From Dietzia lutea (GTDB taxonomy: Bacteria; Actinomycetota; Actinomycetes; Mycobacteriales; Mycobacteriaceae), in NCBI RefSeq assembly GCF_003096075.1, contig NZ_CP015449.1, positions 2,473,001 to 2,537,000 on the forward strand: a DNA stretch of 64,000 bases, written 5' to 3'. Position 1 is the first letter of the stretch; each line of letters opens with the position of its first letter. Under the pieces are notes generated by a model. It was not told where the DNA came from and did no database searches. It was given only the letters and a program-made list of their open reading frames with translations. Of this stretch, positions 934 through 20,034 are shown in pieces. The position numbers and the translations under genes were made by a program.

Positions 934-3900
934 TCAGCGCCGGATACGGAGCCCCTTAGGCGTGATGCCGAAGCCCGCCGCCTCGAACGCGGCGGCGTGT
1001 GGCGAGCCGTGCACGGGCTCTCCGCCCAGCGTGGTCACGGTCAACGGCCCGACCGCTCCCGCGCGGACGGCGTCGACGAGCGCACCCGCGGCGAGAGGCA
1101 CCGCACCGGTGCGGTCGTCGAAGACGAGGACGGTGCGTCCGCCGCGTTCCACGAACAGCACGCAGATCCCGTCGACCAGCACCACGAGAGCGCCCGCCTT
1201 CCGGCCGGGCCGGTGACCCGAGCCGCCCGCGACCGCCGCGGCGCCAGCGCTGGGGACGGCGGTCGGCCAGGGCAGCGCGGCGCCGTAGGGGTTGGCGGGG
1301 TCGGTGGCGGCGAGGACCCGGACGGTGGGTTCGTCGGTGCCGGAGGGCCAGTGGGCGTCGTCGGCGGTGTCGTCGAACGTGCGCAGTCGGTCGATGGTGT
1401 TGCCGGCCGCGAACTGCGCGGCGCCGAGGCCGTCGACGAAGTACCCGCGGCGACAGCGGCCCGAGTCCTCCATCTGCGCCAGCACCTTGTACACGGCGGC
1501 GAACCCGCCGGGTATCTCCTCGGCCTCGACCGCGCCCCGGGTGACGACGCCGTGGCGTAGCAGGAGGGTCTCGGCCCAGGCGTGCGCCCGCAGCGTGGCG
1601 TCGGTGATCGACTCCGGGACGAGGGACCAGCGGCCCGCCAGCACGGGTGGCGTCCTCGTCCCCGCGGCGACAGCACCGTTGAGCTGCGCCATCGCGGTGC
1701 GGCCGAACCGGGCGCGCCGTGGGCGGGCGGAGGCGCGGGGCGACCGGTGCGCGGTCCCCGACCCCGACGAGCCGCCGCCGGCGAGCACCGCGCGCAGCGG
1801 TGCGAGCGTGTCGTTGGTGACGACGCCGTCCCACACCAGGTCCCAGAGCGCGTCGCGCACCGCGGACTCGGTGACGGTCGGCGCGGTGTCAGTGGGCGCG
1901 GTGTCAGTGGGCGCGGTGTCAGTGGGCGCGGTGTCAGTGGGGACGGGGTCGGTGGGGGCGGTGAGTGCGTTCTTGACCGCGGTGACGATGTCGCGGAAGA
2001 ACAAGGCTCCGCCGCGCAGGGAGTCGACGACGGCGAGGTGGACCGGCCCCTCCGGCTGCGGTCGCTCCAGGGGCAGGGTGGCGCCGGCGGAATCGGCCGG
2101 GTGCAGGGAGACCCAGCCGTCGCGGGATCCGGCACGTCCGCGCCCGCTCCAGATGACCTCTCCCCCGGCCAGGAGTTCGTCGAGCATCGCCGGGGAGTAG
2201 TCGCTCACCCGGGGCGCCAGGACGAGCGGTTCGAGGGCGGAGGCGGGAAGCGCGAGCCCGTCGAGTTGCTCGATCACCGCGAGCAACCCGTCGACGCCGG
2301 ATTCGGCGCCACCCGAGCCCAGGCTCTGCCACCCGGGCAGGAAGCGGCCCAGCGCGGAGTGGGATACCGGCTCGATCTGCGAGCGCAGCGCGGCCAGTGA
2401 CCGGCGGCGGATGTGGCGCAGCACCTCGGCGTCGCACCACTCGGGCCCCGTCGCGCCGGGGCGGAACTCACCGGCCAGCAGAGTGCCGGAGGAGGTGAGC
2501 CTGTCGAGCACGCCGCGAGCGACCGCCACGCCGAGTCCGAATCGCTCGGCGACCGCCTCGACCGAGAAGGGGCCGTGGGTGCGTGCGTAGCGGCGGATCA
2601 GCTCGCCCAGCGGGTCGTCGACGTCGCCGAGGAAGGCCGACGGCACGCCGGGCGGGGGCGGGACGCCGAGGCCGTCGCGGAGCCGGGCCACGTCCTCGAC
2701 CCCGGCCCACCAGCTGCGGCCGGAGTGCTCCACCGGGACGATCCGCCACGTCCGGGCCAACTCGTCGAGCCAGCCCGGGACGGCGTCGGGATCGGCGGAC
2801 CGTTCGGTGATCTCGTCGACGGTGAGCGGGCCGAGCAGCCGGAGCAGGTCGACCACCGCCTCGGCGTCGCGCGCCGCGCGCTCGGGCTCGAGGTGCTGCA
2901 GGCGTCGTTCGATCGAGTCGAGCACCGCTACGTCGAGCAGTTCGCGCAGCTCGACTCGGCCCAGCAGCTGACCGAGCAGGCCGGGATCGATGCTCAGTGC
3001 GGCGGCCCGCTTCTCGGCGAGCGGGGAGTCGCCCTCGTAGAGGAAGGCGCCGACGTAGTCGAAGAGGAGCGACTGGGCGAACGGCGAGGCGCCGGGCGTG
3101 TCCACCTCGACGATCCGCACGCTGCGCGACTCGATCTCCCCCAGCAGACGCTCGAGCGCGGGCACGTCGTAGACGTCCTGGAGGCACTCCCGCACCGCCT
3201 CGAGGATCATTGGGAAGTCCGGATAACTCCGCGCGACGTCGAGCAGCTGCGCGGACTTCTGACGCTGCTGCCACAGCGGGGCCCGTCGGCCCGGATCCAG
3301 TCGGGGGAACAGCAGGGCGCGCGCGGAACACTCGCGGAAGCGTGAGGCGAACAGCGCCGACCCGCCCACGTGCCGGGTCACCAGATCGACCGCCTCCTCC
3401 GCGCCGATCGCGAACGTCTCGGCTCCCGGGCGCGCGCCCCCCTCGCCGTCGTCACCCGTGTCGGGGACCCGGAGGATGATGCCGTCGTCGGACACCACCG
3501 GCACCGCGTCGAAGCCGTGCGCGGCGGCCAGCCGGGCGCGCACCGCCTCCGCCCACGGCCAGTGCACCCGCGCGCCGAACGGCGAGTGCAGCACGATCCG
3601 CCAGTCCCCCACCTCGTCGCGGAACCGCTCCACGACCAAGGTCGTGTCGCTGGGCACGTGGCCGGTCGCCTCGCGCTGATCGGCCAGGTACCGCCGGAGG
3701 TTTGCGGCGGCGTAGGCGTCGAGGCCGGCGGCGTCCAGGCGCGCGGTGACCTCCGCCTCCGACCCGGCCGACACCTCGCGCAGGAATCCGCCGAGCGCGC
3801 GGCCGAGTTCAGCGGGACGGCCCTGGTCGTCGCCCAGCCAGAACGGCAGCCGGCCCGTGCCGCCGGGCGCGGGAGAGACCAGCACGCGGTCGTGGGTGAT

Positions 3901-7886: not shown

Positions 7887-8503
7887 AACCACTTCCAGGT
7901 CTTGGGGATCTTCTCCCCCGCGGCGAGGATCTTGATCTTGGCGCTGGCCATGAAGCCGTTGATCTCGATGTCCAGGTGCGGACCGCCGTGAACCTCGTAG
8001 CGTCCCTCGTCGATCTTGAGATCGGTCATCGTCCGGTTCCCGGTGATCGTGACCGAGACGCCCGGCGGGAGCAACACCCGGGCGTTGGCGGCCCACAGGT
8101 CCAGCTGGAGGTGGGTGCGGGGCCGGTCGACGACGGCCTCGCGGGCGTCGAGGTAGATCTCCCCCATCCACGAGGTGAGCCGGTAGTCGTCCGGCAGCAT
8201 CCACCGCCCCTCGCGCTTGAGGGTGTCGAAGATCGAGGTGGTCTTCTGGCCCTCGTCCACGACGATGGCGGCGCCGGGTCGGGGGGCCGGCGGTCCCGCG
8301 TGGTGCGCGGCGGGCGGGGCGGCCGGGTCGGACCCGGCGGGCAGTCCGCTCAGGGCCACCTCGAGTTCGGCGGGGCAGGTGGCCGCCCAGATCTTGGCGG
8401 CACGGTCGGAGAACTCGGCGAGCGAGAGCTCACCGCGCCCCACCATCGCCTCCAGTCGCCGTTGGGCCAGTGCTCTGGGGTCGTTGTCCTGCTCCGGATC
8501 CAT
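7883..8503 (-). CDS. DUF1707 and LiaF-like cell-envelope response protein
   Basis: The 206-residue protein begins with a DUF1707 domain (residues about 8-50, DPRALAQRRLEAMVGRGELS), a short helical module common in actinobacteria. A Pro/Ala/Gly linker follows (about 52-75). The C-terminal domain (about 85-200) carries beta-strand repeats such as LDLWAANARVLLPPGVSV, resembling the toast-rack C-terminus of LiaF-type cell-wall-stress proteins. No membrane span is visible, so it is probably cytosolic or peripheral. Its function is unknown. ATG 8503 gives the DUF1707 start. A strong hairpin lies just upstream of its promoter region. Confidence 0.8.
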   Translation of the reverse strand: MDPEQDNDPRALAQRRLEAMVGRGELSLAEFSDRAAKIWAATCPAELEVALSGLPAGSDPAAPPAAHHAGPPAPRPGAAIVVDEGQKTTSIFDTLKREGRWMLPDDYRLTSWMGEIYLDAREAVVDRPRTHLQLDLWAANARVLLPPGVSVTITGNRTMTDLKIDEGRYEVHGGPHLDIEINGFMASAKIKILAAGEKIPKTWKWF

Positions 8504-8556
8504 GGCCTCAGATTACCCAGCGACCGGGTTCTCGGCGGGAGGGGCCGGAACGCGAG

Positions 8557-8597
8557 ACCCCGCGGGCCCGCCGGCTGTGCCGGCGTTCCCGCGGGGT
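8557..8597. terminator. GC-rich hairpin terminator after the alcohol dehydrogenase gene
   Basis: Outer arms accccgcggg and cccgcggggt enclose inner arms gccggc/gccggc with a 3-base loop and a small internal loop. It lies 32 bases beyond the stop of the leftward dehydrogenase gene. There is no T-run, as is common for actinobacterial terminators. Confidence 0.75.
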
Positions 8598-8628
8598 GGG
8601 TGTGGGCCCGGATCGTGGGCCGCCGCGC

Positions 8629-9750
8629 TCAGTCCTCGTGAACGATGATGCCGCGCACCATGCCCTCGCCGCCCGACTCCATCATCTCGTAGCCCTCGTT
8701 GACCTGGTCCAGGTTGAAGCGGTGGGTGACGAGCTCGTCGAGCTTGAGCTGCTTCTCGTCCCACAGACGCAGGATGTTGGGGATGTCGTGGAACGCGTTG
8801 GCCGAGCCGAAGAGCGATCCCTTGATGACCTTCTCGTACTGGGAGACGAACAGGCCGGTGAGGGTGATCGACTGGTTGTCGAGGCCGCCCATCGAGGTGA
8901 GCACCACGACGCCGCGCTTGCCGACCATGTCGACGGCGTCGGCCGTGACCTTGGCGTCGGCCACGCCGATCGTGATGATGGCCTTCTCCGCCATGAGGCC
9001 CCAGGTCATCGCGGGCAGCTCGGCCTTGGCCTGCTCGACGTCCGTGTAGACGTGGGTGGCGCCGAACTCCTTGGCCTTGGCGAGCTTGGTCTCGTCGGTG
9101 TCGATCGCGAGGATGAACCGGGCGCCGGCGTGCTTGGCGCCCTGGATCGCGTTGATGCCGATGCCGCCGATGCCGAAGACCACGACGGTGTCGCCGGCCT
9201 TGACGTCGGCGGAGTAGACCGCCGATCCCCACCCCGTGGTGACACCGCAGCCGACGAGCGCGGCGACCTCGAAGGGGATCCAGTCCTGGATCTTGACCAC
9301 CGAGTTCATGTTGGCCACGGTGTACTGCGAGAACGTCCCGAGCGTGCACATGGCGCCGGCGGTCTCGCCGCCTGCCAGAGCAAAGGGGTAACGACCGTCG
9401 GCCATGACGCCGAACGTGCCGTTCAGGCCGCCGTCGCAGAGGTTGGACATGCCGCGGGCGCACGCCGGGCATTTGCCGCACGCGGGGATGAACGAGCCCA
9501 CCACATGGTCACCGGGCTGGACGTGCGTGACGCCCTCACCGACGGCCTCGACCACGCCCGCGCCCTCGTGCCCCAGCACGATCGGGAGCCGACCGGGCAG
9601 GTCCCCGGTCCGCATGTGCAGGTCCGAGTGGCACAGGCCGGCGACCTTCCACTTGACCAGCACCTCACCGAAGTGGGGTCCGTCGAGCTCGGCCTCGACG
9701 ATCTCGAACGGCTTACCGAGCTCACGGGCGATTACGGCCTTGGTCTTCAC
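8629..9750 (-). CDS. NDMA-dependent zinc alcohol dehydrogenase, mycofactocin-associated type
   Basis: This 373-residue enzyme belongs to the zinc-containing medium-chain alcohol dehydrogenases. Catalytic-zinc ligands C40 (GLCHSDLH) and H61 (GHEGAG) and the structural-zinc cysteines C91, C94, C97 and C105 are all present. A Rossmann glycine motif (FGIGGIGINA) lies near residues 190-200. The overall pattern fits the Rxyl_3153-type family, whose members hold NAD(H) tightly and pass electrons to mycofactocin, or to NDMA in vitro. The mycofactocin cluster two genes away supports this. Two copies of a GAACGTGTTC box lie in its promoter. ATG 9750 has a good GGAGGG site upstream. Confidence 0.92.
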   Translation of the reverse strand: MKTKAVIARELGKPFEIVEAELDGPHFGEVLVKWKVAGLCHSDLHMRTGDLPGRLPIVLGHEGAGVVEAVGEGVTHVQPGDHVVGSFIPACGKCPACARGMSNLCDGGLNGTFGVMADGRYPFALAGGETAGAMCTLGTFSQYTVANMNSVVKIQDWIPFEVAALVGCGVTTGWGSAVYSADVKAGDTVVVFGIGGIGINAIQGAKHAGARFILAIDTDETKLAKAKEFGATHVYTDVEQAKAELPAMTWGLMAEKAIITIGVADAKVTADAVDMVGKRGVVVLTSMGGLDNQSITLTGLFVSQYEKVIKGSLFGSANAFHDIPNILRLWDEKQLKLDELVTHRFNLDQVNEGYEMMESGGEGMVRGIIVHED

Positions 9751-9792
9751 TGCGACTCCCTCCGGGCGCGACGGTGGTGACCCCCGTCACTG

Positions 9793-9802
9793 GAACGTGT
9801 TC
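9793..9802. promoter_or_regulatory. proximal GAACGTGTTC palindromic box, alcohol dehydrogenase promoter
   Basis: The near-perfect palindrome GAACGTGTTC, in the context tgGAACGTGTTCtcgt, ends 43 bases upstream of the dehydrogenase start. The same extended box occurs 38 bases upstream of the hydrolase gene start at 11403. The core has the AACnnGTT form used by TetR-family regulators such as KstR. The identity of the regulator is inference. Confidence 0.65.
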
Positions 9803-9846
9803 TCGTCACACTAACCCCGGTACTGACATCTGTGGGGTGGCTACAA

Positions 9847-9856
9847 GAACGTGTTC
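9847..9856. promoter_or_regulatory. distal GAACGTGTTC palindromic box, alcohol dehydrogenase promoter
   Basis: This second identical copy is centred 54 bases, about five helical turns, further from the start codon than the proximal box, so bound proteins would lie on the same face of the DNA. It is also 58 bases past the 3' end of trxA. Confidence 0.65.
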
Positions 9857-9913
9857 TCGCCTCGGAGGGAGCGCGGTGTCAGAGCCCAGGCGGCCGAACC
9901 CAGGCACCCGGCC

Positions 9914-10297
9914 TCAGGGCTGCGCGTCGCCCTGCTGGGCCTGCGCCTCCTCGACGGCCTTGCGGACCTCGTCCATGTCGAGTCCCTTGATCTGGTCGAC
10001 CAGGTCGTCCAGGGCCTGCTCCGGGATCGCACCCGAGTGACGGAACACGGCGATGCCCTCACGGAACGCCATGAGCGTCGGGATCGACTGGATCTGCAGC
10101 ATCGCGCCGAGCTGCTGCTCGGCGTCGGTGTCGACCTTGGCGAAGGTCACCTCGGGGTTCTTGCCCGAGACCTTCTCGTAGACCGGGCCGAAGGCCTTGC
10201 ACGGGCCACACCACTCGGCCCAGAAGTCCACCAGGACGATGTCGTTCTCGGTGACGGTCTTCTCGAACTCGGCGGTCGTGATGTCGACGGTGCTCAT
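9914..10297 (-). CDS. trxA: thioredoxin
   Basis: The 127-residue protein has the classical thioredoxin fold and the active site WCGPCK (C30, C33). The cis-proline segment SIPTLM is present. The C-terminus has about 20 extra residues rich in Gln, Glu and Ala. It reduces protein disulfides in the cytosol, recycled by a thioredoxin reductase not in this window. ATG 10297 is preceded by an AAGGAGGG ribosome binding site. It lies between two genes carrying the GAACGTGTTC box but has none itself. Confidence 0.95.
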   Translation of the reverse strand: MSTVDITTAEFEKTVTENDIVLVDFWAEWCGPCKAFGPVYEKVSGKNPEVTFAKVDTDAEQQLGAMLQIQSIPTLMAFREGIAVFRHSGAIPEQALDDLVDQIKGLDMDEVRKAVEEAQAQQGDAQP

Positions 10298-10388
10298 ACG
10301 AATGCCCTCCTTGCGCGTACGGGGCGACTCTCGACCCGTCTGCTCGTCGCCAGCCTACGGATCGCGCGGGCCGACGACGAGATTCCCC

Positions 10389-10420
10389 GGCCACCGATAC
10401 CCGTCTGGGTATCGGTGGCC
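10389..10420. terminator. perfect 14-bp hairpin between the hydrolase gene and trxA
   Basis: The arms ggccaccgataccc and gggtatcggtggcc pair perfectly across the 4-base loop gtct. The hairpin is 72 bases past the hydrolase stop and 92 bases before the trxA start, on the strand that transcribes both. No T-run follows. A terminator for the hydrolase gene is the simplest reading; an operator of trxA is the alternative. Confidence 0.7.
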
Positions 10421-10491
10421 ACTCATCCAGGGCAACGTACACGGGGTGGGGTTATTCCCCGGACACCCCCGCGCCGTGGCTTGTCCGCGAC

Positions 10492-11403
10492 TCAGCGGAG
10501 GGGTGGCGAGTCGAGCACCTCGGCCAGGAACCACTCGAGCTGGTCGAGGAACACCGCGTTGTCGTCGCCGGCGACCATGTGACCGGCGTCGGCGACCTCC
10601 GTGGTGTGGGCGTGCGGGAGCAGCTCGAGCAGATGCTGCACGGAGTCGTCGCTGACGATGTCCGAGGCCGACCCGCGGATGAGCAGGGTGGGCTGGGTGA
10701 TCTTCGGGACGAGCTCCTCGAAGAAGGCGTTGCCGATCTCGGTGTTGTCGGCCGAGGCGTTACCGGCGAAGCGCGGGTCCCAGTGCCAGTGCCACCGCCC
10801 GTCCTCGCGCAGACGCAGGTTCTTGCGCAGCCCCTCGGGGTTCGGGGGCCGCTTGCGGTGGGGCTGGTAGGCGGCGATCGCGTCCGCGGCCTCCTCGAGG
10901 CTCGCGAACCCGTTGAACCCGGAGCGCATGAACTCCCCCACCCTCTCGACGCCCTTGGCCTCGAGCCTGGGGGTGACGTCGACCAGGACGAGCGCGCGGG
11001 CGACGTCCTTACCGGTGCCCAGCGAGAGCATCGCGGTCATCCCGCCGAGCGACGCGCCGACGACGACCGGACGCCGCTCGGGGAACCGCTCCGCGACGAT
11101 CGCCTCGAGATCGGCGGCGAGGCGATGGATGTCGTAGTCGCCTTCCGGGTCCCAGTCGCTGTCTCCGTGTCCGCGCGCGTCCATCGCGGTGACGCGGTAG
11201 CCCTCGCCGGAGAGGCGGCGTGAGGCCCGGCTCCAGGCGTGGCGGGTCTGCGCACCGCCGTGGAGCATGAGGATCTCGTCGACGGCCTCGGTGGGCCGGC
11301 CGTCCGGTCCGTGCGGTTCCCACACCTCCCCGACCAGCCGGACACCGTCCTCGCGCTCGACCGCGAACTGCTGTGGCTCGACGGTGGTCTCAGTACTCGG
11401 CAT
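10492..11403 (-). CDS. alpha/beta hydrolase
   Basis: The 303-residue protein has the alpha/beta-hydrolase fold: oxyanion segment LMLHGGAQTRHAW, MDARGHGDSD strand-turn, nucleophile elbow GASLGG, and the catalytic His in ADAGHMV near residue 280. The acid is probably an Asp in GSASDIVSDD. There is no signal peptide, so it is cytosolic. The substrate is unknown. ATG 11403 was chosen because GGGAGG lies 9 bases upstream; a longer frame starting at 11430 lacks this. A GAACGTGTTC box in the promoter suggests co-regulation with the alcohol dehydrogenase. Confidence 0.9.
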   Translation of the reverse strand: MPSTETTVEPQQFAVEREDGVRLVGEVWEPHGPDGRPTEAVDEILMLHGGAQTRHAWSRASRRLSGEGYRVTAMDARGHGDSDWDPEGDYDIHRLAADLEAIVAERFPERRPVVVGASLGGMTAMLSLGTGKDVARALVLVDVTPRLEAKGVERVGEFMRSGFNGFASLEEAADAIAAYQPHRKRPPNPEGLRKNLRLREDGRWHWHWDPRFAGNASADNTEIGNAFFEELVPKITQPTLLIRGSASDIVSDDSVQHLLELLPHAHTTEVADAGHMVAGDDNAVFLDQLEWFLAEVLDSPPLR

Positions 11404-11440
11404 GTGCGCGCCTCCCGGGCCGTCGCCCACCCTCTCGGTG

Positions 11441-11450
11441 GAACGTGTTC
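11441..11450. promoter_or_regulatory. GAACGTGTTC palindromic box, hydrolase promoter
   Basis: This is the third copy of the box, again as tgGAACGTGTTCtcgt, 38 bases from the hydrolase start and inside the 57-base gap after mftG. Its position relative to the start codon nearly equals that of the proximal box at the alcohol dehydrogenase gene. Confidence 0.65.
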
Positions 11451-11460
11451 TCGTGTCGTT

Positions 11461-12735
11461 CTACCACGCCCGCTCGGCGGCCACCCGCGCGGCGAGCTCC
11501 TCGGCCACCGCGAGGACCGAGTAGTACGGACCGCACCGCGGCAGCGCCGGCAGGACCGACGCGTCGGCCACCCGCAACCCCTCCACCCCGTGCACGCGAC
11601 CGGAGTCGTCGCACACCTCCCCGATCCGCGCCGCGCCCGACAGGTGCTGGGAGGTCGAGCGGGTGACGGCGCCGTCGATGCCCAGGCGTTCCGCCACGAG
11701 CGCCGTCGCCTCGGCCAACGCGGTCGCGTCGCGCGGGTCGTCCGCGAGGTGCACGCTCCCGTCGGCGTGGACCCGCCCCCGGCCGACGGGGTTCATCAGC
11801 GCCACCCCGACACGGTGCGGCGCCTCCTCGAGGCCGGGGATCACGCGGTGCATCGGGACCGCGTAGGGGCGCACCTCGATCTCCGGCACCCACCCGCGCT
11901 CCCGCTCGGGGAGCTCGAGTCGGACCACGTGGGAGAGAAGGGGCGGCAGCCCGGCGGCCGCGGCGGCCAGGCCCGCGGGGACGTCCAGCAACAGCTCGGG
12001 ATGCTCCTGCACCCCGTCGCCGACCGGGTGGCCGCCGGCCCGGTCGATGCCGGAGCCCAGCAGGAGAACGGTCGTCCCGATCGTCCCCGCGCACAGCACC
12101 ACCTGGCGGGTGGTGATCTCCTCGTCGTCGTCGAGGGCCACGCCCACACACCGCCGGGCGCCTCCCGTTCCGCCGACGGCTCCACCCGCCCACGACAGTT
12201 CACGCACCGCGGCGCCGGCGCGCACCCGTACGCCCGCTCCGGCGGGGTCCCACGCGTCGAACGCCGTCACCCTCCGCTCCCCGCTGCGCGCCTGCGCGAC
12301 GGCCGCGACGCGACCGGGGAACGCGGCGGCGACCCACGCGGCGACCGGCCCCATCGGCGCCAGGCGGGGGCGCAGGCGCTCGGCCGCCCGCGCCAGCCCC
12401 ACCGCGTAGCGCCGGGGCCAGTCCGGTCCCCACGCCTCGAGATCCGCCGGCCGGGCGGGCGCGCAGTATCCCCCGTTCACCGCGCCGGACCCGCCGACCG
12501 TCCGGCCGCGGGGCAGCTCCAGAACCGCGTCCCCGAGCGTGGCGGGGTGGCGTGCGACCACGCGGGAGTCGGGGCCGATGTCGAGCAGGCCCGCGCGTGG
12601 GGAGGCGGCGGCCGTGCCGGCCTCGAGCAGCAGGACGTCCGCGCCCGCGTCGGCGAGCCGCCGGGCCACCACGCACCCGGCGGCGCCCGCACCGACCACC
12701 ACGACATCCGCGTCCCCGCCCGGGCCGCCGGTCAT
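11461..12735 (-). CDS. mftG: mycofactocin dehydrogenase MftG (GMC-type flavoprotein)
   Basis: The 424-residue protein is a glucose-methanol-choline oxidoreductase. The FAD-binding motif GAGAAG starts near residue 14, followed by LLLEAG. The GMC signature PRGRTVGGSGAVNGG and the C-terminal active-site region with SQHLSGA and the final VADASVLP block are present. In mycobacteria MftG reoxidises reduced mycofactocin and delivers the electrons toward the respiratory chain, which fits its place as last gene of the cluster. ATG 12735 overlaps the mftF stop (ATGA), so translation is coupled. It is rather short for a GMC enzyme, as expected for MftG. Confidence 0.9.
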   Translation of the reverse strand: MTGGPGGDADVVVVGAGAAGCVVARRLADAGADVLLLEAGTAAASPRAGLLDIGPDSRVVARHPATLGDAVLELPRGRTVGGSGAVNGGYCAPARPADLEAWGPDWPRRYAVGLARAAERLRPRLAPMGPVAAWVAAAFPGRVAAVAQARSGERRVTAFDAWDPAGAGVRVRAGAAVRELSWAGGAVGGTGGARRCVGVALDDDEEITTRQVVLCAGTIGTTVLLLGSGIDRAGGHPVGDGVQEHPELLLDVPAGLAAAAAGLPPLLSHVVRLELPERERGWVPEIEVRPYAVPMHRVIPGLEEAPHRVGVALMNPVGRGRVHADGSVHLADDPRDATALAEATALVAERLGIDGAVTRSTSQHLSGAARIGEVCDDSGRVHGVEGLRVADASVLPALPRCGPYYSVLAVAEELAARVAAERAW

Positions 12736-14225
12736 CGCGTGAGTTCCGGGCGCAGGGCGGCCGGGGAACGCTCCGTCACCGCCGAGCGCCAGACCCCCAC
12801 GCCGTACGCCAGGTCGTCCAAGCGGTGCAGCAGGACGTGCCCGACCGGCTCGTCGGTAGGCCACCGGCCCGGTTCCCGTGCGCTCCACCAGTGCCACAGG
12901 CCCTCCGCCGCGATCGCGACCGCGAGGCGTCGGCGCAGCGCCCGCGCGGTCCGGCCCCGCGACCCGGCGGTGAGCGCCAGCGCCGCCGCGGTGATCGGCC
13001 AATACGGGCGTAGGACCGCCTCCGGCAGCTGCCTGATCGACGCCCCTGCGCCGCGCGCGACGAGCTCGGCGGCCGCGCGTCCGTCGCCGGTCAGCGCACG
13101 CGTGCGCCACCACGCCCTGGTCACGGCACCGAGCGCTATCACCGTGCCGAGCGGGCTCGCGCTCCACACACCGACCGCCACGGCCAGCGACCATGGCGCG
13201 GCGACGGCGGGCGCGACGTCTGCGCCGTGGCGCACCGCAAGGGGCGCGGCTCCACGCCCGTAGTAGGCGCGGCGGGTCAGCAGCGCGCGCACCCCGGTGC
13301 GGTGCCGGTGTGCGACGCGGGCGGCGGGCTCGTAGCGGATCCGACCCCCGGCGTCGTCGATGCGCCAGCACAGGTCCACGTCCTCCGCGACGTGCATGCG
13401 CTCGTCGAACGGCCCCTCGCCCCCGCCGACGGGGACCGGGGGCAGCAGGTCGGGACGGACCGCGAGCGCCGCACTGGGCACGTACGCCACGCCCGTGCGC
13501 GGCCTCACCCGCGCCGGTTCGGGGCCCATGTCCAGCGCCGAGCGCGCCGTCTCGTAGCCGCGCACCCCGAACCGGCCGGGCTCGGCGGCGACGACGCGCG
13601 GCGCGACCGCCGCGACCAGCGGGTCGTCGAGGCGGGCGAGGAGGATGTCGAGCCAGCCCGGCAGCGGGAGGACGTCCGCGTCGAGGTACACCACCACGTC
13701 GGCGCCGGCCGCGACCGCAGCGGACGTGCCGGCGTTGCGCGCGGCCGCCGGGCCGCGGGAGTGGTCGTGGCGCAGGACGGTGGCGGGCGCAGCGGTGAGG
13801 GGCACCGCCAGCGGCGGGGTGGAGCCGTCGTCGACGACGACGAGGTGGGCGCCCCGCGCGAGTTCGGGGGCGAGGGCCCGCGCGAGGGCGGCGACCCCGT
13901 CCGCGTCGTCACGGACGGGGACCACCACGGCGACGCCGTCCAGCGGGCGGTCCGCGGACACCGGGCCGGCGGGATGGGCCATCCCCCGGTCGGTGAGTGC
14001 ACGGGCGAGCGCGGCCCCAGCGGGCGTGTCCGTCGCGACAGCCCGGCCCCCGTCCAGGAGGCCCGCCACCGACGGCGCGGGCGTGATGAGCGTGACCGGG
14101 TCGCCGCCCAGGACCCGCACGAGGCCGCCGCGTCGCAGGATCCGCGTCCGGCGGTCGAGCAGCACGTGCGGCCGGTCGGCGGTGGGTGCGGCGGCTGCGG
14201 GCGTGCGGTGTCCGGCTGGTCTCAT
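12732..14225 (-). CDS. mftF: mycofactocin glycosyltransferase MftF
   Basis: The 497-residue protein is a family 2 glycosyltransferase. The N-terminal part (about 1-85) resembles the MftF-specific region. The GT-A domain starts near residue 95 (GVAVVVPVRDD), with VVDDGS and the metal-binding YLDADVLP. EDVDLCWRI is the acceptor-site motif. Hydrophobic segments after residue 340 suggest membrane attachment. MftF adds a chain of beta-1,4-linked glucose to premycofactocin. ATG 14225 overlaps the mftE stop (ATGA), and its own stop overlaps mftG. Confidence 0.92.
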   Translation of the reverse strand: MRPAGHRTPAAAAPTADRPHVLLDRRTRILRRGGLVRVLGGDPVTLITPAPSVAGLLDGGRAVATDTPAGAALARALTDRGMAHPAGPVSADRPLDGVAVVVPVRDDADGVAALARALAPELARGAHLVVVDDGSTPPLAVPLTAAPATVLRHDHSRGPAAARNAGTSAAVAAGADVVVYLDADVLPLPGWLDILLARLDDPLVAAVAPRVVAAEPGRFGVRGYETARSALDMGPEPARVRPRTGVAYVPSAALAVRPDLLPPVPVGGGEGPFDERMHVAEDVDLCWRIDDAGGRIRYEPAARVAHRHRTGVRALLTRRAYYGRGAAPLAVRHGADVAPAVAAPWSLAVAVGVWSASPLGTVIALGAVTRAWWRTRALTGDGRAAAELVARGAGASIRQLPEAVLRPYWPITAAALALTAGSRGRTARALRRRLAVAIAAEGLWHWWSAREPGRWPTDEPVGHVLLHRLDDLAYGVGVWRSAVTERSPAALRPELTR

Positions 14226-14923
14226 CGGAGCATCCCGTCGTCGCCCGGGCGCCACCCCGCGAGCCGCGCGCGGGCGTCGGCCACCAGCAGGTCCCACAGC
14301 CGCTCGCCGTCCGCGGCCGTGGCGGTGGTGGGGTCCCCCAGGACGCCGGACGGACTCACTGCGGCGACCCCGCCGTCGCGCATGGCGGGCAGGATCTGCG
14401 GCAGCGGCCGGACGCAGCCGCGGGCCGCGAGATCGACGCGCACGAGGTCCGCGTGCAGGTGCAGCATGAGCGAGGTCTCGGCGTGCCCTGCGTGGGTGTC
14501 GCGGGCGTCCTCGGCGGTGCGGCATGACAGCCACGCGACGTCGCGGCCCTCGTGCCGCAATCGCGGGATCGCGCGGCGGAGGGCGTCGACGTTGCCGCCG
14601 TGACCGTTGACCACGAGCAGTCGGTCCGCCCACGAGGACACGGACCTGCCGAACTCGAGGATCACCTCGCCGAGCGCCGCTGTCCCGATGGAGACGGTCC
14701 CCGCGAACGACTGGTGCTCCCCGCTCGAGCCGTAGGCCAGGGCGGGCAGCACGCGGGCGGTGACGCCGGCCGCCGCGTCGGCGACGGCGCGGGCCGTTGC
14801 CTCGGCGAGGAGGGTGTCGGTCTCCGGCGGCAGGTGCGGACCGTGCTGCTCGGTGGCCCCGAGTGGCAGCACGGCGAGCACGCCGCCGCCCGGCCGTCCG
14901 GCCGCGTCGATCGCGCCCGTCAT
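14222..14923 (-). CDS. mftE: mycofactocin precursor peptidase MftE (creatininase family)
   Basis: The 233-residue protein has the creatininase metal-binding motifs TEQHGPHLPPETD (near 24-36), NGHGGN and AGHAETS. MftE releases the C-terminal Val-Tyr-derived product from the modified MftA peptide, leaving AHDP for MftD. Its length is usual for the family. It lies downstream of an SDR gene that separates it from mftD by about 870 bases, and overlaps mftF at its 3' end. ATG 14923 is 6 bases past the SDR stop. Confidence 0.93.
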   Translation of the reverse strand: MTGAIDAAGRPGGGVLAVLPLGATEQHGPHLPPETDTLLAEATARAVADAAAGVTARVLPALAYGSSGEHQSFAGTVSIGTAALGEVILEFGRSVSSWADRLLVVNGHGGNVDALRRAIPRLRHEGRDVAWLSCRTAEDARDTHAGHAETSLMLHLHADLVRVDLAARGCVRPLPQILPAMRDGGVAAVSPSGVLGDPTTATAADGERLWDLLVADARARLAGWRPGDDGMLR

Positions 14924-14929
14924 GTCGGG

Positions 14930-15745
14930 TCAGACCTTGATCGCGCCCATGTCGACGGTGAAGGTCGAGGCGGTGATGGTGCGCGAGGCGTCCGACGCGA
15001 GGAATAGCACCGAGTCGGAGATGTCATCGGTGCTGGCCATGCCCATGCCCAGGATCGGGGTGAAGTGCGGCAGGAACTGCGGCATGTTGTTGAACACCTC
15101 GAGCGCGTCGGGGTCCTCGGCACCCATCGGCGTCTGCACGCCGTAGGGGTGGATCGTGTTGACCCGGATGCCGTGTTCACCGAGTTCCTTCGCGGCGGTC
15201 TGCGCGAGGCCCACCACGCCGTACTTGGAGGCCGAGTACGGGGATTGCACCGGCATGGCCTTGAGGCCCGCCACCGAACTGACCAGGATGATCGAGCCGC
15301 CGTTGCCCGCCTCGAGCATGTGCGGGATCGTGGCCCTGAGGGTCTTCCAGTACCCGGTGAGGTTGATGTCGATGGTGTCCTGCCACTGCTGCTCGTCGAG
15401 CTCCCAGACCTTGCCCCAGTTGCAGATGCCGGCGTTGGCGATCACCACGTCCAGACGCCCGCCGAAGCGCTCCACGCCGCGCGCGATGAGATCCTGCTGG
15501 AACGCCAGGTCCCGCACGTCCCCGACCTCCGCGCAGATCTCCCCGCCCTCGGCCTCGACGCGCTCGATGGTGTCGGCCAGGTCGTCCTCGGTGGCGGTCC
15601 GGTACTTGACGTACTCGGACGGCGCCGCGCACAGGTCGAGGCCGATGATCTTGGCGCCCTCGCGGGCGAACCGGATGGCGTGCTTGCGGCCCTGGCCGCG
15701 GGCCACGCCGGTGATGTAGACGACCTTGCCGTCGAAATCTCCCAT
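14930..15745 (-). CDS. mycofactocin-coupled SDR oxidoreductase
   Basis: This 271-residue short-chain dehydrogenase has the cofactor motif TGVARGQGR (TGxxxGxG) with the RGQGRKHA signature of mycofactocin-coupled SDRs, IANAGI, catalytic Ser at LVSSVAG, and YSASK. An extended segment after the first strand (about residues 40-60) is where this subfamily has an insertion thought to cover a non-exchangeable nicotinamide. Its position inside the biosynthetic operon, between mftD and mftE, supports a role as a mycofactocin-using alcohol dehydrogenase. ATG 15745 has a GGAGG site. Substrate unknown. Confidence 0.92.
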   Translation of the reverse strand: MGDFDGKVVYITGVARGQGRKHAIRFAREGAKIIGLDLCAAPSEYVKYRTATEDDLADTIERVEAEGGEICAEVGDVRDLAFQQDLIARGVERFGGRLDVVIANAGICNWGKVWELDEQQWQDTIDINLTGYWKTLRATIPHMLEAGNGGSIILVSSVAGLKAMPVQSPYSASKYGVVGLAQTAAKELGEHGIRVNTIHPYGVQTPMGAEDPDALEVFNNMPQFLPHFTPILGMGMASTDDISDSVLFLASDASRTITASTFTVDMGAIKV

Positions 15746-15790
15746 GGAGGAGGTGTCCTTTTCTCTGGGTTCTCGTGGGGTGGTGACGGG

Positions 15791-17014
15791 TCAGGCGCCG
15801 AGGCGGCGCATGAAGCCCTCGGGGATGACGTAGTCGTCGCGGCTCAGCTCGGAGATCGACGACTTGCTCAGCCCGATGAGGCTGGAGTCCAGACCGGAGC
15901 GCATGATGTCGAGGACGTTCTCCACGCCGGCCTGCCCGTTGGCGCCCAGGCCCCAGAGGTAGGCGCGGCCGATCATCACCGCGCGGGCGCCGAGCGCGAG
16001 CGCCTTGGCCACGTCCGAGCCGCGGCGGATACCGCCGTCGAGCAGCACCTCCACCCGGTCGCCGACCTCGTCGACGATCGGCGCGAGGCAGCGGATAGAG
16101 GCGGGGGTCGCATCGAGGTTGTTGCCGCCGTGGTTGGACACCGAGATCGCCGTGACCCCGGCGTCGACGGCCCGCTTGGCGTCGTCGATGCGGGTGATGC
16201 CCTTGAGCATGACCGGGCCGTCGTAGTTCTCCACGACCCAGGCGATGTCCTCCCACGTGGCCGGCGGGGTGTTCATCCACTCGCCGTAGGCGCCGAAGAA
16301 GGAGGGCCCCATCTCGCCCTGGTTGACAAGGTTGGGGGTCGTCAGGTCCGGGAAGCGCTTGTTGACCACCACGTCGCGGGCCCACTCGGCCGCCCAGCGC
16401 GGCCGCACGGCGATCTGCGGGGCGAGGGTGACCAGCGCCTTGGCGTCGAGGGTCTCGGGGATGGCCGGGCTCCCCCAGTCCCGTCCCATCGAGAACGACC
16501 AGTCCGTGGTGAGGATGACCCCGGCCGCGCCGGCGGCCTTGGCGCGCTCGAGCCGGCGCAGGACCTGCTCCTTGCCGCCCAGCCAGTACACCTGGAAGAA
16601 GGTCTGTGGGTTGGCCGCGATGACCTCCTCGATGGGCTTGGAGGCGAACGAGCTCAGGCCCATCGCGGTGCCGCGGGCGGCCGCCGCACGGGCGACGTCG
16701 ACCTCCCCGTCCGGGGTGACCGCCTGCACGCCGGTGGGCGAGATCATCACCGGCAGACTGATGGGCTGACCCATCACCGTGGTGGCCATGTCGCGGTCCT
16801 GCTTGGCGCCGATGACGTGCGGCTTGGGCTCGAGTTCGGAGAACGCGTCCATGTTGTCGCGGATCGTCACGCCCGCCTCGCTGCCACCGACGAGCGCCAT
16901 GTACACGCTCTTGGGCAGCTTCTTCTTCGCTCGACGCTGTGCCTCGGCGACGGACTCGAACCACGGGTTCTGCCGCCAGGGGTTGGCCTCGGCGATCTTG
17001 GACAGACGGGACAC
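15791..17014 (-). CDS. mftD: premycofactocin synthase MftD (FMN-dependent alpha-hydroxy-acid oxidase family)
   Basis: The 407-residue protein has the FMN-binding alpha/beta barrel of the lactate-oxidase family: PVMISPTGVQ near the N-terminus, the catalytic His region SNHGGNNLD, and the flavin phosphate loop DGGIRRGSDV followed by GRAYLWGL. MftD converts AHDP to premycofactocin, giving the redox-active alpha-keto amide. The start GTG 17014 was chosen because AGGAGG lies 11 bases before it and VSRLSKIAEAN begins the conserved N-terminus; the frame stays open much further upstream but inside mftC. Confidence 0.94.
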   Translation of the reverse strand: MSRLSKIAEANPWRQNPWFESVAEAQRRAKKKLPKSVYMALVGGSEAGVTIRDNMDAFSELEPKPHVIGAKQDRDMATTVMGQPISLPVMISPTGVQAVTPDGEVDVARAAAARGTAMGLSSFASKPIEEVIAANPQTFFQVYWLGGKEQVLRRLERAKAAGAAGVILTTDWSFSMGRDWGSPAIPETLDAKALVTLAPQIAVRPRWAAEWARDVVVNKRFPDLTTPNLVNQGEMGPSFFGAYGEWMNTPPATWEDIAWVVENYDGPVMLKGITRIDDAKRAVDAGVTAISVSNHGGNNLDATPASIRCLAPIVDEVGDRVEVLLDGGIRRGSDVAKALALGARAVMIGRAYLWGLGANGQAGVENVLDIMRSGLDSSLIGLSKSSISELSRDDYVIPEGFMRRLGA

Positions 17015-17073
17015 GGTGGGGGTTCCTCCTACGGGATTCGGTCCGGGGGCGCGGGTCGGCTCGGGACGCGCGG

Positions 17074-18333
17074 TCAGATCGGGGACTCGTCGCACAGGCT
17101 GGTGGGCCGGCGCGGCGGGGTGGTGATGAGCGTGAGCGGCACCGGGCCGGCGGGCTGCTTGCGCGCCGCCAGGCCCTTGGTGCGCGAGTGGTCCTGCGAC
17201 GGCGCCGGGATGGCGCGCTCGGCGGCGAGCAGGCCCTCCCCGTGGCCCTGGACGCACTCGGGGTCCGGGCCGTCCATCGGCAGGCCGGTGAAGAACTTCG
17301 CGGCCATGCAGCCGCCACGGCAGCTGTCGTAGAACCCGCAGGACCCGCACGCGCCCGCGGACTGGGGCTCGCGCAGCTCGCGGAACAGCTCCGACGTCTG
17401 CCACACCGACTCGAATCCGCCGTCGGCGACGACGTTGCCAGCGAGGAAGTTGTCGTGGATGGCGAACGGGCACGCGTAGACGTCCCCGATCGGGTCGATC
17501 AGACACACCACGCGGCCGGCGCCGCAGAGGTTGAGCCCCGGCAGCGAACCCTGGCCGTCGCCGAACGCGGACAGGTGGAAGAAACTGTCGCCCGTGAGCA
17601 CGTTCTCGCCGTGCGCGACCAGCCAGTCGTAGAGGTCCTTCTGCTGCTCGGGCAGCGGGTGCAGGTCGTCCCACACGTCGGCGCCGCGGCCGGACGGACG
17701 CAGTCGCGTGATGCGCAGGGTGGCGTCGTAGCGATCGGCCAGCGCCTTGAACTCGTCGAGCTGGGTGATGTTCTCGCGCGTGACGACGACCGAGATCTTG
17801 GCGTCGGTGAAGCCGGCGTCCTTGAGGTTCTGCAGCGCCCGCACGGCCATGTCGAACGAGCCCGGGCCGCGGACCGCGTCGTTGACCTCGGCGGTCGCGC
17901 CGTCGAGGGAGATCTGCACGTCGACGTAGTCACTCGCCGCCAGGCGCCGGGCGACCTTCTCGTCGATCCGCACGCCGTTGGTGGAGAACTTCACGCCCAC
18001 CTGGTGGCTGGTGGCGTAGTCGACGAGCTCCCAGAAGTCCGAGCGGACCGTGGGCTCGCCGCCGCCGATGTTGACGTAGAAGACCTGCATCTTCTGCAGT
18101 TCGTCGATGATCGCCTTGCACTGCTCGGTGCTCAGCTCCCGCGGATCGCGCTTGCCCGAGGAGCTCAGGCAGTGCACGCACGAGAGGTTGCACGCGTAGG
18201 TGAGCTCCCAGGTCAGGCAGATCGGCGCGTCGAGCCCGCGCTCGAACTGGTCCACGAGTCGGCCGACGGGAGCCGGAGCCGCGGTGGTGGGCGCCGCTCC
18301 GGACGTGGTCGAGCGGTCGAGCATGCTGGTCAT
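17074..18333 (-). CDS. mftC: mycofactocin radical SAM maturase MftC
   Basis: The 419-residue protein carries the radical SAM cluster motif CNLSCVHC (C48, C52, C55), the GGGEP motif (NIGGGEPTVRSD), and a C-terminal SPASM domain with cysteines in CGAGRVVC, YACPF and CGSCGFYDSCRGGC. MftC decarboxylates the last Tyr of MftA and links it to the neighbouring Val. ATG 18333 overlaps the mftB stop (ATGA). About 25 low-complexity Ala/Pro/Thr residues precede the conserved part, and the last 30 residues (Pro- and Thr-rich) extend beyond the SPASM core. Confidence 0.96.
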   Translation of the reverse strand: MTSMLDRSTTSGAAPTTAAPAPVGRLVDQFERGLDAPICLTWELTYACNLSCVHCLSSSGKRDPRELSTEQCKAIIDELQKMQVFYVNIGGGEPTVRSDFWELVDYATSHQVGVKFSTNGVRIDEKVARRLAASDYVDVQISLDGATAEVNDAVRGPGSFDMAVRALQNLKDAGFTDAKISVVVTRENITQLDEFKALADRYDATLRITRLRPSGRGADVWDDLHPLPEQQKDLYDWLVAHGENVLTGDSFFHLSAFGDGQGSLPGLNLCGAGRVVCLIDPIGDVYACPFAIHDNFLAGNVVADGGFESVWQTSELFRELREPQSAGACGSCGFYDSCRGGCMAAKFFTGLPMDGPDPECVQGHGEGLLAAERAIPAPSQDHSRTKGLAARKQPAGPVPLTLITTPPRRPTSLCDESPI

Positions 18334-18656
18334 GAGGTCTCCTCGATCATGCGCGAGGCGGCGAGCTGGCCGAGCGCGTGCAGGTACAGGCGGGCCGTGC
18401 CCGGGTCGTCGATCGGCACCCCCGCGGCCGCGCACGCGGCGCGGGCGGTGGGATGGTCCGCGAGCGTGCGCACGACCTCGACGATGGTCGGCGACTTGAG
18501 AAAGCTGAGCTTGCGGGTGTGGAAGTGGTAGAGAAGGGCCCCGAACGGCTCGGGCCGCAGGGCGACGCCCGGGTGCAGGCGCCAGCCGGCGTCGAGATCG
18601 AATGCCGCCGGGGCGGCCGTCTGCCCGGCGCCGGCCGGCGCTGCTGCGGAGGTCAT
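18330..18656 (-). CDS. mftB: mycofactocin peptide chaperone MftB
   Basis: The 108-residue protein is the RiPP-recognition-element partner that binds the MftA leader and presents it to MftC. FDLDAGWRLHPGVALRPEPFGALLY matches the MftB N-terminal domain, shown here only as its start FDLDAGWRLHPGVALR; the KLSFLKSP segment and the helical C-terminus follow. About 18 Ala-rich residues precede it. ATG 18656 lies one base past the mftA stop and its own stop overlaps mftC, so the three genes are tightly coupled. Confidence 0.93.
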   Translation of the reverse strand: MTSAAAPAGAGQTAAPAAFDLDAGWRLHPGVALRPEPFGALLYHFHTRKLSFLKSPTIVEVVRTLADHPTARAACAAAGVPIDDPGTARLYLHALGQLAASRMIEETS

Positions 18657-18657
18657 C

Positions 18658-18744
18658 TCAGTAGACCCCGCACATGCCGTCGATCGAGACCTCCTCGATG
18701 AGGGCCTCCTCCAGCACGACCTCGGTGTTCTGCGCGTTGTCCAT
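18658..18744 (-). CDS. mftA: mycofactocin precursor peptide MftA
   Basis: This gene encodes only 28 residues, ending in IDGMCGVY, the signature C-terminus of MftA. The final Val-Tyr pair becomes the cofactor core. The leader NTEVVLEEALIEEVSIDG is acidic, as expected for MftB binding. GGAGGGAAGG lies 7 bases before ATG 18744. A longer frame continues upstream, but it lacks a ribosome site and crosses the promoter. A consensus-like promoter with an operator in its spacer lies 58 bases upstream. This is the first gene of the leftward operon. Confidence 0.96.
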   Translation of the reverse strand: MDNAQNTEVVLEEALIEEVSIDGMCGVY

Positions 18745-18801
18745 CTCGCGTCCTTCCCTCCGGAACTGCGGGAACCCCACCACGGGCGTGGTGAGACCCG
18801 A

Positions 18802-18830
18802 ATCATATTGGCACTTGGTGCCAGTGGCAA
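18802..18830 (-). promoter_or_regulatory. mftA promoter with operator in the spacer
   Basis: On the minus strand, -35 TTGCCA (18825-18830) and -10 TATGAT (18802-18807) are separated by exactly 17 bases. The perfect palindrome TGGCAC-3-GTGCCA (18809-18823) fills the spacer. A repressor bound there would block RNA polymerase. The divergent mftR, a TetR-family gene 27 bases away, is the natural candidate. The promoter elements are the best match to the sigma-A consensus I found in the window. Confidence 0.8.
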
Positions 18831-18856
18831 GGATCACTGATCTAGGCTCTCGTGTC

Positions 18857-19462
18857 ATGGGAATGACGGGAATGACGGGAATAACCTCGGGACGGACGCC
18901 CGGACGTCGCCCGTCGACCACCCGCGCGTCGATCGTCGACGTGGCCCTCGACCTGTTCGCGCGCCAGGGTTACGAGGCGACCAGCGTCGACCAGATCGCC
19001 GAGGCAGCCCACATCTCGCGGCGCACCCTGTTCCGCTACTTCCCTGGCAAGGCCGCCATCGCGTGGGGCGAGTTCGACGAGCAGATCGAGCTCATGCTGG
19101 GGTACCTGGCCGGCGTCCCGGAGGACACCCCGCTGCGCGACGCGCTGGCGGACGCCCTCATCGCGTTCAACACGTTCCCGCCGTCGCAGACCGAGGTCCA
19201 CCGCCTACGGATGCGCCTACTCCTGGGCGTGGACGAGCTCCAGGCCCACTCGACGCTCGTGTACGCCGACTGGCGGCGGGCCGTGGCCGGATTCGTCGCC
19301 GACCGGCGGGGCGAGACGGTGGACGACCTCGTGCCCGCCGCCACCGCGCACGCCGCCCTCGGGATAGCGCTGTCCGCCTACCGCCTGTGGGTGGCCGAGC
19401 CCGGGGCGGACCAGGATCGCCTCCACGAGCTCCTGCGCCGCGGGACGCAGATCTTGGCTTGA
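18857..19462 (+). CDS. mftR: mycofactocin system TetR-family regulator MftR
   Basis: The 201-residue protein has an N-terminal TetR helix-turn-helix (about 20-65: SIVDVALDLFARQGYEATSV, then AHISRRTLFRYFPGK) and an all-helical ligand domain. In M. smegmatis MftR represses the mft genes and responds to long-chain acyl-CoA. It is divergent from mftA. The first codons are made of a 9-bp repeat containing ATG at 18857, 18863 and 18872, so the exact start is uncertain. A TAGGCT -10 element (18843-18848) so close to the start suggests a leaderless transcript. Confidence 0.9.
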   Translation: MGMTGMTGITSGRTPGRRPSTTRASIVDVALDLFARQGYEATSVDQIAEAAHISRRTLFRYFPGKAAIAWGEFDEQIELMLGYLAGVPEDTPLRDALADALIAFNTFPPSQTEVHRLRMRLLLGVDELQAHSTLVYADWRRAVAGFVADRRGETVDDLVPAATAHAALGIALSAYRLWVAEPGADQDRLHELLRRGTQILA

Positions 19463-19491
19463 CGCGGTGAGCACTCGCGCGCTCCGGGTGG

Positions 19492-19518
19492 CCGCGGGGC
19501 AACTTACCGCGGGGTAAC
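19492..19518. promoter_or_regulatory. repeat and palindrome upstream of the DUF4442 gene
   Basis: Direct repeats ccgcggggcaac (19492-19503) and ccgcggggtaac (19507-19518) are 15 bp apart. The second is part of the palindrome-like ttaccgcggggtaa (TTACC-4-GGTAA). It ends 9 bases before the GTG start, where a repressor would block initiation. The ligand and regulator are unknown. Confidence 0.5.
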
Positions 19519-19527
19519 CTCGTCGTC

Positions 19528-20034
19528 GTGACCGACACCTCGCCCCGCCCCACCGCCGACACCTCCACCTACCGCCTGTGGAAGTCCGCCACCCGCCTGC
19601 CGTTCGGATCCCGTCTGTTCAGCGCCGCGGTGAGCCTCAAGGCCCCCTACTTCCGCACGGCCCATCCGCACGTCACCGAGCTCCGGCCCGGGCGCTGCGT
19701 CGTGCGCGGGCCGGGATGGTGGGGCAACCGCAACCACATCGGCACCTTCCACGTGATCGCCGCGTGCAACCTCGCGGAGATGGCGATGGGCATGCTCGCC
19801 GAGGCCACCGTGCCCTCGACCCACCGCTGGATCCCCGTGGGCATGAACGTGCGCTACCCCGCCAAGTCGACGGGCGGGATGACCGTCACGGCCGAGTGGA
19901 CCGAGCTGCCCGACTTCGCGTCCATGTCCACCGGGCAGGACATCGAGGTGCCCCTGCGGTTCGTCGACGACGCGGGGGTCGAGCCCGTGGTCGGCAGCAT
20001 CACGATCCGGGTCTCGCCCAAGAAGAGGACGTGA
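19528..20034 (+). CDS. DUF4442 hotdog-fold protein, probable acyl-CoA thioesterase
   Basis: The 168-residue protein fits the DUF4442/PaaI-like hotdog family. LWKSATRLPFGSRLFSAAVS forms the N-terminal helix; the core NRNHIGTFHVIAACNLAEMAMGM contains the His and Asn/Glu expected near the thioester. It has no signal peptide. A cytosolic acyl-CoA hydrolase is likely but unproven. GTG 19528 is the only start that keeps the full N-terminal helix. A repeat/palindrome lies just upstream. It follows mftR in the same direction, 65 bases apart, and could be weakly cotranscribed with it. Confidence 0.75.
   Translation: MTDTSPRPTADTSTYRLWKSATRLPFGSRLFSAAVSLKAPYFRTAHPHVTELRPGRCVVRGPGWWGNRNHIGTFHVIAACNLAEMAMGMLAEATVPSTHRWIPVGMNVRYPAKSTGGMTVTAEWTELPDFASMSTGQDIEVPLRFVDDAGVEPVVGSITIRVSPKKRT

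Follow-up and report, generated by a model that had tools for sequence, protein, structure and literature searches.

Does the position of a short-chain dehydrogenase/reductase (SDR) gene among the genes for mycofactocin maturation tell us which enzyme is the main user of this cofactor? The question is raised by a locus of Dietzia lutea, contained in a 64,000-nucleotide stretch of contig NZ_CP015449.1 (positions 2,473,001 to 2,537,000) that we call the window and in which coordinates are counted unless another contig or locus is named. From 18744 down to 8629 on the minus strand, it carries mftA, mftB, mftC, mftD, the SDR gene (14930..15745, 271 amino acids), mftE, mftF, mftG and the genes of an alpha/beta-hydrolase, a thioredoxin and an alcohol dehydrogenase (ADH). 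The original prediction took the embedding of the SDR between mftD and mftE to be unusual, proposed that one transcript would couple the enzyme to its cofactor, and singled out the SDR as the main physiological client; it also held that the point would lose force if the same order proved common in many genera. We find that the order is common, and that the window very probably holds a standard actinobacterial mft locus on the chromosome of Dietzia, with one mycofactocin-dependent SDR in the position between mftD and mftE that it inherited long ago.

Cluster order was compared in a family sample of 151 genomes from 31 genera, the source genome included. MftD was found in 116 of these genomes (24 genera) and MftE in 118. 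The two genes were paired by position, every non-Dietzia genome in which 600–16,000 bases separate them was fetched (75 in all), and an SDR was recorded when at least 40% identical over 200 residues. Such an SDR lies in the gap in 53 of the 75 genomes, representing 9 genera; with the 11 surveyed Dietzia genomes added, the count reaches 64 of the 116 genomes with mftD, in 10 of the 24 genera. The remaining 52 comprise 22 with other or unidentified cargo, 17 with a gap shorter than 600 bases (nine of them of genus label g29, with 201–317 bases), 7 in which mftE precedes mftD (all of genus label g22; named Nocardia loci have the same arrangement), and 6 in which no pairing of the two genes on a single contig and strand was possible. 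The survey thus rules out the reading of the order as unusual. The mftD–SDR–mftE arrangement is common, and seemingly old, among relatives of Dietzia, and is ordinary rather than special.

Named loci, taken as the best 80 of 585 encoding an MftD relative (some without an mft cluster in the stretch), gave the same picture of an order shared across genera. The SDR lies between mftD and mftE in 21 of them: 4 Dietzia, 4 Gordonia, 6 Williamsia, 4 Rhodococcus, 1 Prescottella, 1 Skermania and 1 labelled Kitasatospora. Two further stretches, from Dietzia (L005) and Gordonia (L019), end after the SDR and are not counted among the 21. The 13 loci carrying the name Mycobacterium or Mycolicibacterium all lack an SDR there, so that the original prediction was right about mycobacteria. 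Seven of the best 80 loci (Microbacteriaceae, Arthrobacter and an actinomycete metagenome-assembled genome) have SDRs in another position, between mftC and mftD, with 28 copies altogether. A Cryobacterium locus (L069) has an SDR of another clade after mftD, with no mftE match within the locus. The Kitasatospora case (L013) was considered as horizontal transfer and rejected: its mftD position is the same as in genome G122, which is placed in the family of the window. The record, Kitasatospora arboriphila NRRL B-24581, has a Williamsia-like mft locus and is probably misnamed.

When an SDR is present in the gap, three layouts can be distinguished, so the compact Dietzia form is one of several. 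In 26 genomes (labels g9, g23 and g27) the SDR is flanked by two OYE-like flavoproteins, identified as TIGR03996 and TIGR03997 in the two loci that were scanned; in 24 (g8, g10, g12 and g18) it is followed by an antisense family III CoA-transferase; and in 14 (11 Dietzia, 2 of g15 and 1 of g26) it stands alone. Gaps without an SDR hold the two flavoproteins in 13 genomes, the CoA-transferase alone in one and an oleate hydratase in another, and 7 long gaps (five g5, one g11, one g17) match none of the tested families. A profile search found TIGR03997 above cut-off in none of 23 Dietzia genomes, which would fit a loss without proving it. The antisense CoA-transferase parts the SDR from mftE in 24 of the 53 non-Dietzia genomes with an SDR at this site, and in 3 of the 53 the SDR itself is antisense to mftD. 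The loci in which the SDR between mftD and mftE opposes the direction of the operon include L036 (SDR at 12126-12941) and L056, both named Gordonia, and L182, L190 and L193 of label g8.

We asked in trees how the SDRs at this site relate to other members of TIGR03971, the family of mycofactocin-coupled SDRs. The larger tree of 83 rows (77 different) set 33 mftD–mftE SDRs beside SDRs from other loci and TIGR03971 paralogues of five genomes (28 rows, 26 distinct because L214 and L232 duplicate a neighbour). For this tree the rows were thinned by removing the Cryobacterium row and five named near-copies, keeping one or two rows per genus label and omitting most mftC–mftD copies. In it the 33 SDRs form one side of a branch with support of 88/79, found in 90% of 200 bootstrap trees. 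Adjacent is a group of 8 rows, to which six mycobacterial loci contribute the SDRs upstream of their mftR, genome G050 contributes one SDR, and the source genome contributes the paralogue L084; the 33 together with this group have 100/100 support. The first tree, of 68 rows, had united its 24 mftD–mftE SDRs in one clade (91/91) and placed the Cryobacterium SDR elsewhere. The SDRs between mftD and mftE thus appear to be one clade with moderate support. Since L084 falls in the sister group, Dietzia has both SDR lineages, and the copy in mycobacteria need not have arisen by relocation of the same gene.

Within Dietzia the arrangement is stable. The SDR adjoins mftD in all 23 genomes, and the full order, with mftR divergent, then mftA–mftD, SDR, mftE–mftG, hydrolase, thioredoxin and ADH, is kept in 12 of 20 fetched stretches, namely those that reach the ADH (one of them, L130, begins after mftR at a contig end); the remaining 8 stop before the ADH and match up to their ends. 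In comparisons of the window with 10 of the 20 stretches, the ratio of non-synonymous to synonymous substitution rates (dN/dS) of the SDR is 0.08–0.27, close to those of MftC (0.08–0.15) and MftD (0.05–0.21), and it is below those of MftE, MftF and MftG in 10 out of 10 comparisons. The Dietzia SDR is strongly constrained. The thioredoxin gene (9914-10297) is conserved between hydrolase and ADH in Dietzia. A divergent Dietzia genome, G022, has 957 bases between its mftE and mftF matches (locus L131), compared with at most about 60 in other stretches.

The enzyme itself bears the marks of its family. Its TIGR03971 profile score is 342.8 bits against a cut-off of 300, and it has the insertion at the NAD adenosine site: the NAD-site region is 11–16 residues longer than in 5 of 6 aligned classical SDRs of the same genome, and 4 longer than in L090. 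Among solved structures, 3PGX is the closest in sequence (E 2e-85), and the window SDR aligns to it without gaps through this insertion. As described in the report on these structures, 3PGX is an SDR of M. paratuberculosis encoded near mftA–E, with NAD buried by the insertion; nuclear magnetic resonance on two M. avium relatives revealed no NAD exchange, and one of the two did not bind carveol; and TIGR03971 SDRs are generally associated with mft clusters (PMC5264612). These features support the assignment of the SDR to the mycofactocin-coupled nicotinoprotein family, and so its earlier description as a predicted mycofactocin user; by likeness to these relatives its NAD would be non-exchangeable. 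The carveol dehydrogenase LimC is reported to reduce mycofactocins using carveol (PMC7491314). Given this reaction and the likeness to 3PGX, a predicted electron route from the SDR to mycofactocin in Dietzia is reasonable.

Regulation at the head of the locus fits expression of the SDR with the mft operon. A motif scan revealed a single promoter-like site in 8400-19700 (0.2 expected), located at 18802..18830 on the minus strand just before mftA. It overlaps an MftR-type operator palindrome, TGGCAC-N3-GTGCCA (18809..18823, no strand), recognised by likeness to the M. smegmatis operator and lying 78 bp before mftA. The palindrome matches the core GGCA-N5-TGCC reported for that operator, which has a similar distance to its gene (PMC8728441). 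Of 21 Dietzia loci (the window and 20 fetched), 17 have this core upstream of mftA. Elsewhere it was present in 16 of 46 loci, chiefly those of mycobacteria, with no Gordonia or Rhodococcus locus among them. The genome has two copies of the full palindrome, the second at C1:786358, with about 0.4 expected by base composition as a rough estimate. No GGCA-N5-TGCC core precedes the locus ADH, and operator and spacing together would fit an ADH outside this control. A terminator scan found 2 sites where 1.6 are expected. The SDR gene is separated from mftD by 45 bp and from mftE by 6 bp and lies downstream of the MftR-type operator, so a single transcript running from mftA past the SDR to mftG is likely in Dietzia. 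To this extent the proposed coupling of enzyme and cofactor stands; it fails to explain why the SDR is retained across the family, where the gene may be antisense or cut off from mftE by the CoA-transferase.

We therefore favour an ordinary mft locus with an inherited SDR, a reading that starts from the identities, order, spacing and conservation of the genes, from clade membership, and from the NAD-site insertion and the operator-like palindrome. The events it would set in motion are modelled on relatives. MftR on the operator upstream of mftA would hold the operon off; its release, attributed in M. smegmatis to long-chain acyl-CoA, would allow one transcript for precursor peptide, maturases, SDR and MftG. 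The SDR would oxidise an alcohol with NAD staying on the enzyme, mycofactocin would take the electrons from enzyme-bound NADH, and MftG would re-oxidise mycofactocin and deliver the electrons to respiration. Several observations weigh against this reading. Clade support for the mftD–mftE SDRs is moderate, the exact operator core is missing in 4 of the 21 Dietzia loci and appears in only 16 of 46 elsewhere, and the MftR score just equals its family cut-off. Moreover, 46 of 116 mftD genomes are arranged otherwise, without an SDR between mftD and mftE, six more being those that could not be paired; the SDR is thus not needed for an mft locus in general.

That the SDR inside the maturation operon is a special feature marking the main mycofactocin user seems unlikely to us. 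Its constant place beside mftD in Dietzia, the strong constraint and the likely single transcript would suit such a role, as would the report that M. tuberculosis needs its TIGR03971 SDR Rv0687, which is not among our tree sequences, to survive in vitro and in vivo; loss of Rv0687 impairs survival with NADH/NAD+ unchanged (PMC11277061). Yet the step from embedded gene to main physiological client does not follow, because 10 of the 24 sampled genera with mftD share the order and elsewhere the SDR is sometimes antisense or separated from mftE. Besides, the source genome encodes four TIGR03971 SDRs over cut-off, the window SDR included, and three ADHs of the TIGR03989 type, among which the locus copy scores lowest (463.5 bits, compared with about 564 for two paralogues elsewhere). 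We take the alcohol dehydrogenases Mno/Mdo and EgaA to be of the TIGR03989 type. It is these enzymes that the alcohol-growth phenotypes described for M. smegmatis and R. jostii concern. In the same genome, contigs C3 and C4 have SDR-like matches every ~6.3 kb (C3:3775, 10109, 16446; C4:6386, 12629, 18950, 25284), several scoring the same as C1:380784; these look like tandem or concatemer contigs.

If the gap were a tolerant landing site, the SDR would have no special tie to the locus, and cargo that varies by genus (the two flavoproteins, the antisense CoA-transferase, the oleate hydratase) is what one would expect. However, the SDRs at the site form one clade instead of grouping with random paralogues, and NCBI names TIGR03996 and TIGR03997 as mycofactocin-system proteins, so we hold this explanation to be quite improbable. 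It is still harder to believe that the SDR is no client at all and takes part in making or maintaining the cofactor, for example by keeping mycofactocin reduced. Such a role would agree with a lineage that keeps to the locus from genus to genus and groups at 100/100 with the mycobacterial SDRs upstream of mftR, the G050 SDR and L084, and with the reduction of mycofactocins by carveol dehydrogenase (PMC7491314); against it stand the 46 genomes without an SDR at the site and the pathway of M. smegmatis, which is described as using mftA–F (PMC7491314).

The composition of the locus was established with curated NCBIfam models, each with its own cut-off. Several longest open reading frames overstate the genes, and likely starts of mftB, mftC, mftD, mftF and mftG were chosen from the homologous part. 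The precursor peptide gene mftA (18658..18744, 28 amino acids; TIGR03969, 49.5 bits, cut-off 25) is separated by 1 bp from the chaperone gene mftB (18330..18656; TIGR03967, 105.9 bits, cut-off 33), which overlaps by 4 bp the gene of the radical SAM maturase mftC (17074..18333; TIGR03962, 656.5 bits, cut-off 265). After 59 bp comes mftD, encoding the pre-mycofactocin synthase (15791 to ~17014, GTG start assumed; TIGR03966, 662.2 bits, cut-off 470.85), whose product is 96% identical to MftD of Dietzia natronolimnaea. Beyond the SDR, the creatininase-family peptidase gene mftE (14222..14923; TIGR03964, 282.3 bits, cut-off 172), the glycosyltransferase gene mftF (12732..14225; TIGR03965, 371.3 bits, cut-off 280) and mftG (11461..12735) are joined by overlaps of 4 bp each. 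Since mftA, mftB, mftC, mftD, mftE and mftF are all present above their family cut-offs, this is a mycofactocin biosynthetic locus; production of mycofactocin itself is predicted. The Dietzia-type GMC oxidoreductase MftG scores 736.2 bits against a cut-off of 300 with NF038210, a model described as exclusive to Dietzia (PMC11778925), and adjoins mftF; re-oxidation of reduced mycofactocin is its predicted role by homology.

The hydrolase and thioredoxin genes, additions to the earlier gene list, lie between mftG and the ADH. The alpha/beta-hydrolase gene (10492..11430; PF00561, 79.8 bits) follows mftG after 30 bp with its GTG start at 11430, or after 60 bp with the ATG at 11400, and we could only guess at an esterase or lactonase. 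Thioredoxin (9914..10297) matches PF00085 with 94.5 bits. The NDMA-type zinc ADH (8629..9750), a predicted mycofactocin client outside the tight operon, passes TIGR03989 narrowly (463.5 bits, cut-off 440), and the same-locus ADH of Dietzia genome G022 falls below this cut-off with 426.9 bits. All these genes are on the minus strand; the divergent TetR-family regulator gene mftR occupies 18863..19462 on the plus strand with a start chosen by us, and its TIGR03968 score and cut-off are both 224.9 bits. The biosynthetic genes, the SDR between mftD and mftE, MftG and the NDMA-type ADH are therefore all present as originally described, and the extent of 11 kb holds by coordinates.

We found no description of the Dietzia mft island in the mycofactocin literature surveyed, and its order adds another case of one already known. 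Table 4 of Haft 2011 (PMC3023750) lists, for R. jostii RHA1, gi 111023033-041 as TetR, MftB, radical SAM protein, MftD (036), TIGR03971 SDR (038), creatininase (040) and glycosyltransferase (041). The consecutive gi numbers imply that the SDR lies between mftD and mftE, as in Dietzia, and that this order has been implicit since 2011. This agrees with Rhodococcus loci L011, L012 and L016, in which ~2 kb on each side of the SDR leave room for one gene. The table omits numbers 037 and 039; in L011, a related locus of R. wratislaviensis, the SDR is flanked by TIGR03996 and TIGR03997, whereas the Dietzia locus has neither. Similarly compact is the locus of Skermania sp. ID1734 (L021), with mftD, SDR and mftE in compact succession, no other gene between them, and then mftF and mftG; it differs in an SDR that is 59% identical and in having no match to the window hydrolase or ADH in the fetched stretch. 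Mycobacterial loci share mftR and the mftABCDEFG order. All 13 named ones lack an SDR between mftD and mftE, and 6 of these 13 fetched stretches carry a related SDR upstream of mftR. At the protein level, 3PGX shares TIGR03971 membership with the Dietzia SDR and its NAD is described as buried (PMC5264612); LimC of R. erythropolis is likened to it by its reported reaction with carveol and mycofactocins.

A further locus bears on possible substrates. The mftD–mftE gap of L160 (genome G075, label g5) holds an oleate hydratase (NF010584, 896 bits), which shares the strand of mftE and lies ~0.5 kb away from it; the coordinates are 1264-3027 and 3058-3924, and the gene beside the hydratase resembles, by eye only, a 3-hydroxyacyl-CoA dehydrogenase. 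Together with the acyl-CoA control of M. smegmatis MftR, the hydratase suggests hydroxy fatty acids as possible mycofactocin substrates. Tentatively, and with considerable doubt, we propose that the locus-bound SDR lineage, found in the mftD–mftE gap of 10 sampled genera and ahead of mftR in some mycobacteria, is the original and dedicated partner of mycofactocin. It would act on a single conserved endogenous substrate, perhaps a hydroxylated fatty-acid-derived alcohol, which would suit the control of MftR by acyl-CoA; the many other TIGR03971 paralogues would have become clients later, for alcohols from outside.

The gene order itself changes little. Mycobacteria, in which mycofactocin has been most studied, belong to the genera that lack an SDR between mftD and mftE, while an SDR at this site is widespread in their relatives. 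For this reason a search for a native mycofactocin substrate would do better to begin with the locus-bound lineage than with a TIGR03971 paralogue picked at random.

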